DNA of 40,052 nt from Gemmatimonadota bacterium (GTDB lineage: Bacteria; Gemmatimonadota; Gemmatimonadetes; Gemmatimonadales; Gemmatimonadaceae). Numbering within the stretch: position 1 is the first letter of the stretch; every line of letters starts with the position of its first letter. The notes beneath the pieces are model-generated. The model worked only from the letters and a program-made list of their open reading frames with translations, had not been told where the DNA came from and searched no databases. The stretch is from contig VGVM01000020.1 of NCBI GenBank assembly GCA_016874035.1, positions 1 through 40,052 of the forward strand, in the 5' to 3' direction. Below are positions 23,205-26,838 of the stretch, in pieces. Position numbers and translations under genes: made by a program.

Positions 23205-24334
23205 GTGCCAAGTGGGATTGAGACCCACCGCCGCTCGCGGAACGAGCGTTCGACGGCGTTGATCAGCTCCTGCACATGGGCGCCGTCGTCAAAGTCACCG
23301 GCGCCCGGCACCGAATCGTCCGTGATCTCGGTGATGAACGAGCTAACCAGGTTCGCGTAGAACAGGGAACGCCAGGACTCGCGACTGCTCCCTCCCGGCG
23401 GGTAGTAGGACGCGGTGACCTCGATGTCGCGGAACTCCACCTGGTCCTTGGTGGCGCCCTTGAGGGACTCGCAGATGCCGTTCTCCTCGACGAGCCGGCA
23501 GATCAGCGCGCCCTTGCTGCCGTACACGCGCGCCTCGAGTCCCGGGTAGTTGCCCACCGTGACAAAGCTGGTCTGGATCGAGCCGATCGCCCCGCTCGCG
23601 AACTCGCCGATGAAGATGTCGCCGTCATCAATGTTCATGCGCATCATGGTGCCGGTCGCGCGCACGACGCGCTCCGGGATGAAGTTCTTCATCGTGCCGA
23701 CGACCTGCTGGAACCGGCTGCCCATGAAGAGATGTCCGAGGTCCATGATCGGCGCGCCATAACCCTCGAGCGACGAGACCTGCAGCACCGATTGGTCGGC
23801 CGTGTGATCCGCCTGGCGGAGCGGCGTACTGGGGTCAATCCACTGCGAGTTCTGCTCATAGCCGTTGAAGATGAACGGCGTACCGACGAAGCCGTCGTCA
23901 ATCAACCGCTTCATGTACTGCATCGCGGGGCTGTAGCGGAACGTAAAGCCCAGCTTGGTCCGGAGCCCGTTCTCGCGCGCAAGTGCCGCGGCACGGCGCG
24001 TCTCGCGAAAGTCGTACGCGACCGGCTTTTCGCAGAGTACATGCTTGCCGGCCTCGAGCGCCGCCATGGCCAGCGCGAAGTGGGTCGCGCTCGGCGTGCA
24101 CACGTCCACGACGTCAATGTCCGCGCGCGCGATGAGCTCCTCGTGGGAGGCGTACGCGTGCGGGATCCGAAACTCGGCCGCGGCCTCCGTCGCGCGTTCG
24201 GGGACGACATCGGCGATCGCGACGAGCTCGCAGCGCGGGTCCCGCGCGAATCCCGGCAAGTGGGCGAACCGGGCCCACGCACCGGCGCCGAGGACCCCGA
24301 CGCGCACCTTGCGATTGCGGACAACCTTGAGCAT
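23201..24334 (-). CDS. Gfo/Idh/MocA-family NAD(P)-dependent oxidoreductase
   Basis: This 377-residue oxidoreductase has an N-terminal Rossmann fold (VRVGVLGAGAWARFAHLPGF), the signature EKP motif (GKHVLCEKPVAYD) whose Lys takes part in catalysis, and the C-terminal alpha/beta substrate domain (GTPFIFNGYEQNSQW, DLGHLFMGSRF, GAIGSIQTSF). Members oxidise or reduce sugars and related polyols. ATG 24334 is chosen because it starts just before the first Rossmann strand. It is the first gene of the operon with DUF885, the binding protein and two permeases, with 4-nt overlaps throughout. The promoter probably lies in the AT-rich spot near 24424-24431 shared with the divergent ABC1 kinase gene, where the minus strand reads TAATAC. 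Confidence 0.92.
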   Translation of the reverse strand: MLKVVRNRKVRVGVLGAGAWARFAHLPGFARDPRCELVAIADVVPERATEAAAEFRIPHAYASHEELIARADIDVVDVCTPSATHFALAMAALEAGKHVLCEKPVAYDFRETRRAAALARENGLRTKLGFTFRYSPAMQYMKRLIDDGFVGTPFIFNGYEQNSQWIDPSTPLRQADHTADQSVLQVSSLEGYGAPIMDLGHLFMGSRFQQVVGTMKNFIPERVVRATGTMMRMNIDDGDIFIGEFASGAIGSIQTSFVTVGNYPGLEARVYGSKGALICRLVEENGICESLKGATKDQVEFRDIEVTASYYPPGGSSRESWRSLFYANLVSSFITEITDDSVPGAGDFDDGAHVQELINAVERSFRERRWVSIPLGT

Positions 24335-24425
24335 CGGATGGACGTTGGGTCCGAGTCGGGGAGGCGAGCGCCTGCGGGGTCGAGACGGAAAGTTCCGGCC
24401 CGGAACTGCCTGCCGCAACCGTCCG

Positions 24426-24431
24426 TATTAT
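24426..24431 (+). promoter_or_regulatory. -10 box TATTAT, probable leaderless start of the ABC1 kinase gene
   Basis: TATTAT ends 9 nt before GTG 24441. On the minus strand the same spot offers TAATAC (24429-24424) for the divergent operon, with a leader of about 85 nt. Confidence 0.5.
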
Positions 24432-24440
24432 TCCCTGACC

Positions 24441-26369
24441 GTGCTGCACACCACCCGCGTCTTCCTCACCCTTGCCCCGATCGCGCTTTCCTTCGTGCGC
24501 GACCGGCGCCGCTGGATTTGGTGGGGCCCGGGGCTGGCTCGGACCCCCGAGTTTCATCGTGCGCGGGCCGACCGGCTCGTCGCGGCGATCGTCCGGCTCG
24601 GCCCGACCTTCGTGAAGATCGCGCAGGTCTTCGCGTCCCGCGCCGACCTGATTCCCGAGCCCTACCTCGCGGCGCTCGGCTCGCTTGTGGACCAGGTGCC
24701 CGCCCTGCCGTTCGACCGCGTGGATGCCGCGATCCTCGACGCGTACGGCCGCCGCGCGGACGACATCTTCGACCAGTTCGAGCGGACGCCGGTCGCAGCG
24801 GCATCGCTCGCCCAGGTGCACCGCGCGCGGGTGGACGGCCGGACGGTGGCGGTGAAGGTGCTGCGCCCGGGCATCGAGGAGCGGCTCGAAGCCGACATCC
24901 GAGCGGCCCGCACGATCCTGGAGCTGCTCGATCGCTGGTGGGGGCACCCGCACATCAAGCGTGAGCTGACCGCGCTCGCGGCATTCACCACGCGCGCGCG
25001 GGAGGAAGTGGACTTCCGGCTCGAGGCCGGGTACGCCAAGACCATACGCGCCAACTTCGCGAACAACGACCGCGTCGTGATCCCAGAGATCCTCGAGGAG
25101 TACACGCGCCAGCGCGTGCTCGTGATGGAGTTCATCGAAGGCACGCGCGCGGACCGCCTCGATCCGTCGCGTGTGGACGTGCGCGCGATGGCGCAGACGC
25201 TGGTCGAGCTGTACGTGCAGATGGAGTTGATTGACGGCGTGTTCCACGCCGACCCGCATCCCGGCAACGTGTTCGTCCTGGACGACGGTCGGATCGGGCT
25301 CGTGGATTTTGGCGCGGTGGTGCACGTCCCGATCGCCATGCGCCGCGCGCTGGTGCACACCTCGATCGCGGCGATCCGCCGCGACGCCGCGGCCGTGACC
25401 GACGGCTTCTTCAAGATGGGCCTGTTCGGCGAGACGACCGACCGCGCGAGCGTGCGGTGGATTGCGGAGCTGATGATCGAGGGCGCCTACTCGCGGACGA
25501 CGACGAAGGAGCGGCTCGATATGCTGCTCGCCCGGCGCGTGATGCGGTCGCTGTTCGACTCGCCGATCCAGCTCACCGAGGAGGCCGTGTATTTCGCGCG
25601 CGCCGCCGCGCTGATCGAGGGCATCGGCACGCGCTACGACCCGTATTTCCAGATCGTGCCGATTGCGAGTCCCGTGGTGCTCCGAATGCGCACGCGGATC
25701 CTCCGATCGCTGGGCGAGGACGTCACGCCATCGCCTGAGGAGATTGCCGCCGTCACCGGGTACGCGCTCGGCCGCGCGACGAAGTGGATCCGGGAGCGCG
25801 TGGCGAACGCGCAGGACGCGTGGGAGAAGCGCCGCGCGCTGGCGCGGACGGGAACCGGCCCAGCGCTCGGGCTCATGCTGATGGCGATGCTGGCGTGTTC
25901 GCGCCCGACGATCTCGACGGTGTCCACCGCAGCGACCCCGGCACCCCGAAGCACCGTCGCCGGACCGACAGCCATTGACGTGCGCTGTGACTCATGCGGA
26001 CCGATCGCGATGCGACCGGAGATCGTTCGCGCGCTTTCCGCGCGCGCGGCCGCGCTGCAAGCGCTCGGCGGCGCCTGCGCGGAATACGGCGCCACGATGG
26101 AACGAGCGCTCACGAACGGGCTCATCACCATACGCCCGTTCATGTGGCGCGTGGACGACTCGCTCGCATCCGCGCGCGGCCATGACACCGGGGAGATGCA
26201 CATCGCCGCGGAGATTGACTCGCTCAACCCCGGTGTGCGCACCGTGGACGATATCGTGCACAGCGTCGAGTACGAGGCCGCACACATCACGTTCCGGCTG
26301 CTGTCGCGCCAGGCGGAGTCGGAGGCGCTGGTGGAGCGACACCTGAGTGGGTGCCGAGGGCGGCGGTGA
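24441..26369 (+). CDS. ABC1/UbiB-family kinase fused to a lipoprotein-like C-terminal domain
   Basis: The protein has 642 residues. Residues about 1-470 are an ABC1 (UbiB/ADCK) atypical kinase: LGPTFVKIAQVFASRADL (the usual K-x-G-Q is KIAQ here), the Ala-rich loop AAASLAQVHRA, the Lys of VAVKVLRPG, HADPHPGNVF and LVDFGAV. Such proteins support ubiquinone or other lipid metabolism at the membrane. From about residue 475 the sequence changes: WEKRRALARTGTGPALGLML followed by MAMLAC-SRP reads exactly like a lipoprotein signal peptide with a lipobox Cys. About 150 residues of unknown type follow, rich in Ala/Arg and with VHSVEYEAAHITF near the end. Either this is a true fusion or a second protein starts inside at GTG 25800. 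The start GTG 24441 is backed by a -10 box 9 nt upstream. It is convergent with the peroxiredoxin gene. Confidence 0.88.
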   Translation: MLHTTRVFLTLAPIALSFVRDRRRWIWWGPGLARTPEFHRARADRLVAAIVRLGPTFVKIAQVFASRADLIPEPYLAALGSLVDQVPALPFDRVDAAILDAYGRRADDIFDQFERTPVAAASLAQVHRARVDGRTVAVKVLRPGIEERLEADIRAARTILELLDRWWGHPHIKRELTALAAFTTRAREEVDFRLEAGYAKTIRANFANNDRVVIPEILEEYTRQRVLVMEFIEGTRADRLDPSRVDVRAMAQTLVELYVQMELIDGVFHADPHPGNVFVLDDGRIGLVDFGAVVHVPIAMRRALVHTSIAAIRRDAAAVTDGFFKMGLFGETTDRASVRWIAELMIEGAYSRTTTKERLDMLLARRVMRSLFDSPIQLTEEAVYFARAAALIEGIGTRYDPYFQIVPIASPVVLRMRTRILRSLGEDVTPSPEEIAAVTGYALGRATKWIRERVANAQDAWEKRRALARTGTGPALGLMLMAMLACSRPTISTVSTAATPAPRSTVAGPTAIDVRCDSCGPIAMRPEIVRALSARAAALQALGGACAEYGATMERALTNGLITIRPFMWRVDDSLASARGHDTGEMHIAAEIDSLNPGVRTVDDIVHSVEYEAAHITFRLLSRQAESEALVERHLSGCRGRR

Positions 26370-26373
26370 AGCG

Positions 26374-26827
26374 CTAGGCCAACGCTCGCAAGTCACGCAC
26401 TGCAAGCAGCACCGCATCAGCATGGCCCGCGATCACCGGCGCCTTGATGGTCGCGGCCACGCGACCATCCGGACCGATCACGACGCTCGCGCGATCCACA
26501 CCCATGTAGCGGTGACCGAATAGCTGCTTCGGCACCCAGAGCTTGAAGCGGCGTATCACAGCGGCGTCAGGGTCGGACAGCAACCGGTACGGCAGGCCGA
26601 GCTTGTTCCGGAAGTTCGCGAGCTTGCGAACCGAATCCGGTGAGACGCCGGCGACTTCCGCACCGACTCGCGCAAAACGCGGCATCAGGTCGCGGAACTC
26701 GCACGCGGATTCCGTACAGCCCGGTGATCCGGCCTTCGGGAAGAAGAAGAGCACCACGAAACTCCCGTGGTGCTCGGCGAGATCGAACGTGCTCCCGTCG
26801 TCGGCCGGCAGCCGGACGACCAGGCGC

Positions 26828-26838
<11 letters not shown>
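26374..26838 (-). CDS. bcp: Peroxiredoxin, BCP/PrxQ type
   Basis: This 154-residue thiol peroxidase reduces hydrogen and alkyl peroxides. The peroxidatic Cys41 lies in PKAGSPGCTESACEFRD, and the resolving Cys46 five residues later marks the PrxQ class with an intramolecular disulfide. The family core FVVLFFFPKA and the later Arg-containing strand are present. It has no signal peptide and is cytoplasmic. ATG 26838 overlaps the argF stop by 11 nt, so it is translated with ornithine carbamoyltransferase. A functional link between the two is not obvious. The stop lies 4 nt from that of the convergent ABC1 kinase gene. Confidence 0.93.

Follow-up and report, generated by a model that had tools for sequence, protein, structure and literature searches.

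The fused frame and its kinase half

The window analyzed here, a stretch of 40,052 nucleotides from a Gemmatimonadota genome, carries a 642-codon frame on the plus strand (24441-26369), which, as seen in the ORF list and its translation, runs without a stop from an ABC1/UbiB-like kinase into a C-terminal tail. The fusion is confirmed as an observation, with a kinase, a lipobox-like signal, and a domain of about 155 residues lying in one frame, all on the plus strand. The kinase part (residues 1 to 453; 24441..25799) contains FVKIAQ, an AAAS loop, AVKV, HADPHPGN, and DFG, and its GTG start at 24441 is putative, having been picked by alignment. The junction (25800..25856) consists of the end of the last kinase helix and a basic linker, WEKRRALARTGT, within which GTG 25800 and CTG 25839 are the only start-like codons. 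It is followed by a hydrophobic core with a lipobox-like end, GPALGLMLMAMLAC (25857..25898); the Cys of its MLAC is Cys486 (codon 25896-25898), after which come 156 residues. The mature part of the lipoprotein (157 residues; 25896..26366) includes YEAAH (residues 611 to 615; 26271..26285) where the alignment places HExxH, the first His being replaced by Tyr (TAC). Behind the stop codon of the fused frame (26367..26369), the ORF list shows a convergent gene on the minus strand (26374..26838), which we take from its sequence to be of the peroxiredoxin type.

Coding scores computed in the fused frame over 40-codon blocks are positive for the kinase and for the domain, and the two blocks covering about residues 473 to 552 (the signal core and the stretch after it) score about zero or lower. 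The G+C contents at codon positions 1, 2, and 3 are 0.71, 0.52, and 0.86 in 26001-26366, compared with 0.71, 0.46, and 0.91 in the kinase, and 25881-26000 is atypical (0.55, 0.75, and 0.75). The ORF list gives an ORF of 804 amino acids, but its part upstream of 24441 does not belong to the protein: each of the four 40-codon blocks there has its best score in another frame or on the opposite strand. In 23955-24440, the frame is open upstream of the kinase and overlaps an oxidoreductase-like ORF on the minus strand.

The Pfam ABC1 domain (PF03109) matches residues 82 to 320 (E value of 2.5e-62), its 210.6 bits lying above the gathering score of 22.9. The invariant Lys, HxDxHxxN, and DFG are all present and are invariant or nearly so in a 15-row alignment, one row of which is incomplete. 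The NCBIfam UbiB model TIGR01982 aligns over positions 45 to 426 of 436 with 283.8 bits, under its cut-off of 487.55, and the kinase is best described from its sequence as UbiB-like, below the UbiB equivalog cut-off. Its main matches among relatives show 43 to 70% identity. By hydropathy, the window kinase lacks a C-terminal transmembrane hairpin and has only the signal-like core in that place.

The lipoprotein family and its altered motif

The original prediction read the tail as a lipoprotein signal with a lipobox cysteine and an unknown domain fused to the kinase, and it guessed that YEAAH is a decayed HExxH site; each of these points holds at the sequence level. A query with the tail alone against 61 genomes (its own and 60 relatives) matched two unfused ORFs of about 200 amino acids at 42% identity (E values of 2.3e-38 and 5.1e-36), which indicates that the tail is more than a chance extension, and gave two further weak matches (G026 and G034). 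A profile of the lipoprotein matched 18 of the 179 genomes of the bacterial family, 12 of them (the window included) at an E value of 1.9e-35 or better, and 13 of 394 genomes of the class, 11 of which belong to the same bacterial family. In an alignment of the window with 11 unfused relatives (A4), the lipobox Cys is invariant (12/12), and EHEA[AV]H is found in 11/11 unfused relatives, with the window alone having EYEAAH. HExxH also occurs in two weaker matches, as HEFAH in L271 and HESIH in L056. The unfused HExxH lipoproteins, which come from the same bacterial family, have 32 to 44% identity and a shared lipobox Cys and core motifs, whereas in the window the copy is joined to a kinase and has YEAAH instead of HExxH. 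It belongs to the aligned family by homology but does not have both His of the motif, and it has lost 5 of the 32 positions that are invariant in the other 11 members, the most of any member, while keeping 27. Judging from the motif, the HExxH family may bind metal, and the window domain, without the first His, is probably not an active metalloenzyme.

The lipoprotein domain has no convincing sequence match in Pfam, NCBIfam, or the PDB and therefore represents an unnamed family; profile searches of the PDB gave best E values of 0.82 for this family and 0.5 for the secreted partner family described below. A single-sequence structure model of the mature domain was set aside (pLDDT, 60.6; pTM, 0.33). 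A 672-amino-acid frame of the family in G169 was rejected as a kinase fusion because it contains no kinase sequence. The analysis thus adds an unnamed family of HExxH lipoproteins that includes one informative broken member.

The signal in the window lies inside the protein and has a basic stretch, a hydrophobic core, and the Cys, with Met, an unusual choice, at lipobox position -3. The LGT and LspA families are both found in the genome. A nested gene starting at GTG 25800, as had been proposed, did not stand up to comparison: this codon aligns with a kinase valine (RERV in the window and KDRV in the tail-less kinase of G008), a GGAG ends just 3 nt upstream of it, and the next ATG, GTG, or TTG is ATG 25875, inside the hydrophobic core.

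Kinase tails and neighboring genes among relatives

The kinase is present in 102 of the 179 family genomes at an E value of 1e-90 or better. The survey of C-terminal ends took in 101 of these and G085, from the same order; G178 has no motif, and the sequences of G010 and G078 are incomplete. By hydropathy, the 99 family kinases with complete C-terminal ends divide into 11 that are long-tailed (fused), 8 with a hairpin, and 80 with neither. Most family kinases are thus tail-less, and both the stand-alone lipoproteins and the tail-less ABC1 homologs that the original prediction called for exist; the opposite picture, in which every close homolog is tailed with a long conserved transmembrane segment, the Cys is missing, and no stand-alone forms occur, is not what the genomes contain. 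All 11 tailed kinases fall in a clade that lacks the usual membrane hairpin at the C-terminal end. The eight hairpin kinases (L122, L134, L135, L138, L171, L172, L175, and L178) are followed by a co-directional GTPase-like gene (GPPGAGKST), which is not exported.

The genus of the window is represented here by 18 genomes, that of the window included, of which 14 have the kinase and 13 have it with a complete C-terminal end. Four of these kinases (G003, G008, G013, and G015) end shortly after the last helix, and the nine others continue. In G005, G006, G007, G011, G014, G016, and G017, the kinase continues into a protein that has a signal peptide and belongs to an unnamed secreted family, whose domain is well conserved in these seven fused relatives. 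The secreted family (alignment A2) is about 200 amino acids long, with conserved FHVACYH and GTPKAH, and has no Pfam or NCBIfam match above the cut-off and no convincing PDB match. In G008, G013, and G015, plus G080 from another genus, it is encoded separately, by the gene that immediately follows the kinase, and matches to it occur in 113 of the 179 family genomes, with none in the window genome, G003, or G004. In public records, locus L181 (JANYKA010000226.1) carries a kinase fused to this family, with the same tail as in G006, and the kinase at L195 (JADZCT010000018.1) is the tail-less one of G003, Gemmatimonadaceae bacterium SJ733.

G004 holds the best-scoring relative of the window kinase, and its tail consists of a lipobox and about 70 residues without a recognizable domain. 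The idea that this tail is a deleted copy of the window lipoprotein is only suggestive and was not adopted, with a best domain E value of 0.045 and with 8 of 2,000 shuffles reaching a score that was chosen after the fact. Downstream of the kinase in G004 (L015), the minus strand has an antisense lipoprotein-like ORF, MRATTGAFAVAMLVVAACSS, that extends as far as the end of the kinase frame; the last part of the tail may therefore not be protein. In another genus, the kinase of G184 is fused to a SnoaL-like exported domain (16.4 bits, below the Pfam cut-off of 22) and that of G194 to an exported protein of the beta-lactamase family (E value of 3.7e-49). A SnoaL-like protein is encoded by the next gene after the kinase in G193 and farther downstream in G187; for the beta-lactamase-type partner, no separate neighboring copy was seen among the kinase loci examined. 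The window lipoprotein is a kinase partner in one genome only and an unfused kinase neighbor in none of the genomes examined, and the unfused lipoproteins inspected adjoin other genes.

The fusions must number at least four, given the four different partners. On a 66-row kinase tree, the fused state changes six times under parsimony, and a single loss of the hairpin preceding all fusions suffices on the same tree, which was built quickly, with SH-aLRT support only, and with an outgroup that does not fall on one branch. The secreted family also lies within long frames (up to 1,052 amino acids) at loci other than that of the kinase; these were rejected as fusions, since the upstream part codes in another frame or on the other strand in 9/9 scored. 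These came from 14 loci tried (12 plus L087 and L076), nine of which gave a row and five none, and they are part of the frames listed; as a small base-rate check, 0/9 long frames away from the kinase were fusions.

A motif scan placed a convergent peroxiredoxin-type gene behind the kinase in 9 of 16 relatives; it missed the copies of the window and G004, of which the first is in the ORF list and the second, separated from the kinase by another gene, was recognized by eye. Because the window and these relatives have this gene in common, the junction lies in a slot that they share. In the other six of the 16, no peroxiredoxin-type gene was seen within 0.35 to 1.5 kb behind the kinase, and in G003 the kinase abuts the convergent gene with nothing between. 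A co-directional gene lies within 200 nt in 40 of 89 unfused rows. At least 19 of these 40 genes look exported, an undercount because a late start was picked for G008, G013, G015, G102, G105, and G106. Since the neighborhood is already rich in exported-looking genes, exported partners prove little, and they were rejected as proof of selection.

Counted from HxDxHxxN, the 11 fusions have the start of their first hydrophobic segment at 187 to 213, with the window at 204. For the 8 hairpin kinases this start is at 212, and among 64 relatives from named genomes it is at 212 to 231 in 61, the remaining three being Gemmatimonadota without a hairpin. The 64 are the loci with a recognized and complete C-terminal end out of 80, two of the genus of the window being left out. 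Only 3 of 81 unfused hairpin-less kinases have such a segment. The position of the segment fits a captured signal replacing the lost anchor, and the match is also in part a consequence of where the kinase itself ends and of the short linker behind it.

Readings of the fusion and known systems

On balance, the two genes are probably truly fused in the window, and the 642-residue product would have a cytoplasmic kinase, a signal at the inner membrane, and a lipoprotein domain on the outer side. The frame is continuous, both halves have homologs and also exist unfused, and the lipoprotein has no start codon of the ordinary kind, all of which supports the fusion directly. A kinase gene without its own stop would read on in frame into the lipoprotein gene, and the fusion may have arisen through loss of the kinase stop beside such a gene, by analogy with two other partners for which this is the likely route. 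The internal signal would still engage Sec and would then either stay as a C-terminal anchor or, after lipidation, be cut by LspA before Cys486. Because the kinase clade has no two-helix hairpin, a captured signal would restore a membrane segment near the old place, and as a hypothesis, this restored segment could be why such fusions persist. The lost invariant positions and the noncoding-like blocks at residues 473 to 552 speak against this reading, pointing to possible decay.

Decay is central to one alternative, in which the C-terminal end of the kinase can be extended without harm, drift produced the fusion, and the window lipoprotein domain is a decaying passenger. The replacement of His by Tyr in a motif kept by all 11 relatives and the five lost invariant positions are in line with such a neutral relic, as are the variable C-terminal ends across the clade, the G004 tail with its lipobox and domainless residues, and the G003 kinase that ends directly against a convergent gene. 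The retention of 27 invariant positions and of the codon-position pattern of the domain, together with the well-conserved secreted domains of the seven fused relatives, argues otherwise, and we regard a neutral relic as possible but rather unlikely.

By analogy with FbcH of Bradyrhizobium, the chain might instead be a polyprotein that is always cut at the internal signal, by LspA in the window and by signal peptidase I in the relatives, so that kinase and exported protein would become separate proteins. Cleavage-type ends are kept (the Cys in the window and A-x-A-like ends in relatives), and the genome has both lipoprotein-processing families noted above, but the open-licence PMC papers searched gave nothing on the FbcH precedent. 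Constant cleavage is put forward tentatively, as a minority possibility.

Two products from one frame, the full fusion and an independently started lipoprotein, were also suggested by the original prediction, which failed for GTG 25800 in the window but is plausible in the seven secreted-family fusions, where an internal start looks preserved. In all seven, an SD-like motif (GAGG, AGAGG, or GGGAG) ends 7 to 9 nt before the ATG that opens the signal peptide (L018 to L024, in G011, G014, G017, G016, G005, G007, and G006, the candidates for two products), and in six of them, it uses an AGG arginine codon, which accounts for 6 of the 318 arginine codons of those seven kinases. The distance from AGY to this ATG is 28, 29, or 30 whole codons. 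A separate secreted product besides the fusion is likely in these relatives, as far as the sequence signals go. The linker before the internal ATG behaves as protein too: G005 and G007 differ there at 6 of 18 codons (5 silent), compared with 47 of 300 in the kinase (44 silent) and 22 of 203 in the signal and tail (15 silent), although this is a small sample, 18 linker codons in a single pair, the first of which belong to the kinase helix. The window junction has no ATG, GTG, or TTG at the position matching the internal start of the relatives, and neither does that of G184 at the corresponding place. The sole alternative internal start in the window is CTG 25839, 12 nt before which a GGGAG ends, and a second product of its own is improbable here.

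An assembly or sequencing artifact is very improbable: the window is a single 40-kb contig from a draft genome of 191 contigs and this exact fusion was seen once, but the downstream flank with the convergent peroxiredoxin-type gene matches relatives, the tail family belongs to the same bacterial family, and ten other genomes have in-frame tails on the same kinase.

As for the fused frame itself, the lipoprotein half may anchor the kinase through an uncut signal, undergo cleavage at Cys486, or represent a passenger in decay. In a broader and doubtful reading, a hairpin-less kinase clade would have regained a membrane segment at least four times by capturing the signal peptides of its neighbors, with interchangeable outer domains and with some partners also made separately from a buried SD and ATG. 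Gene fusion is a known event; what is unusual is that it has recurred at a single point in a single kinase while the exported partners differ, and no description of a fusion between this kinase and an exported protein was found in the open-licence PMC literature. Membrane attachment bears on how UbiB-like kinases work, and the hairpin-less clade with its varied exported partners offers a natural experiment on whether a signal peptide in the middle of a bacterial protein anchors it or marks a cleavage site and on whether fusions of neighboring genes are selected or merely tolerated.

The window kinase shares the ABC1 domain, HADPHPGN, and DFG with the ABC1/UbiB/COQ8 family. Members of that family normally have KxGQ, whereas the window kinase has KxAQ, no C-terminal hairpin, and an exported domain at its C-terminal end. 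FbcH, the cytochrome b/c1 precursor of Bradyrhizobium, resembles the window in having an upstream protein, an internal signal peptide, and a periplasmic protein encoded by a single frame. Its cleavage is reported to have been shown, and both parts serve one complex, whereas the fusion in the window is known from its sequence.
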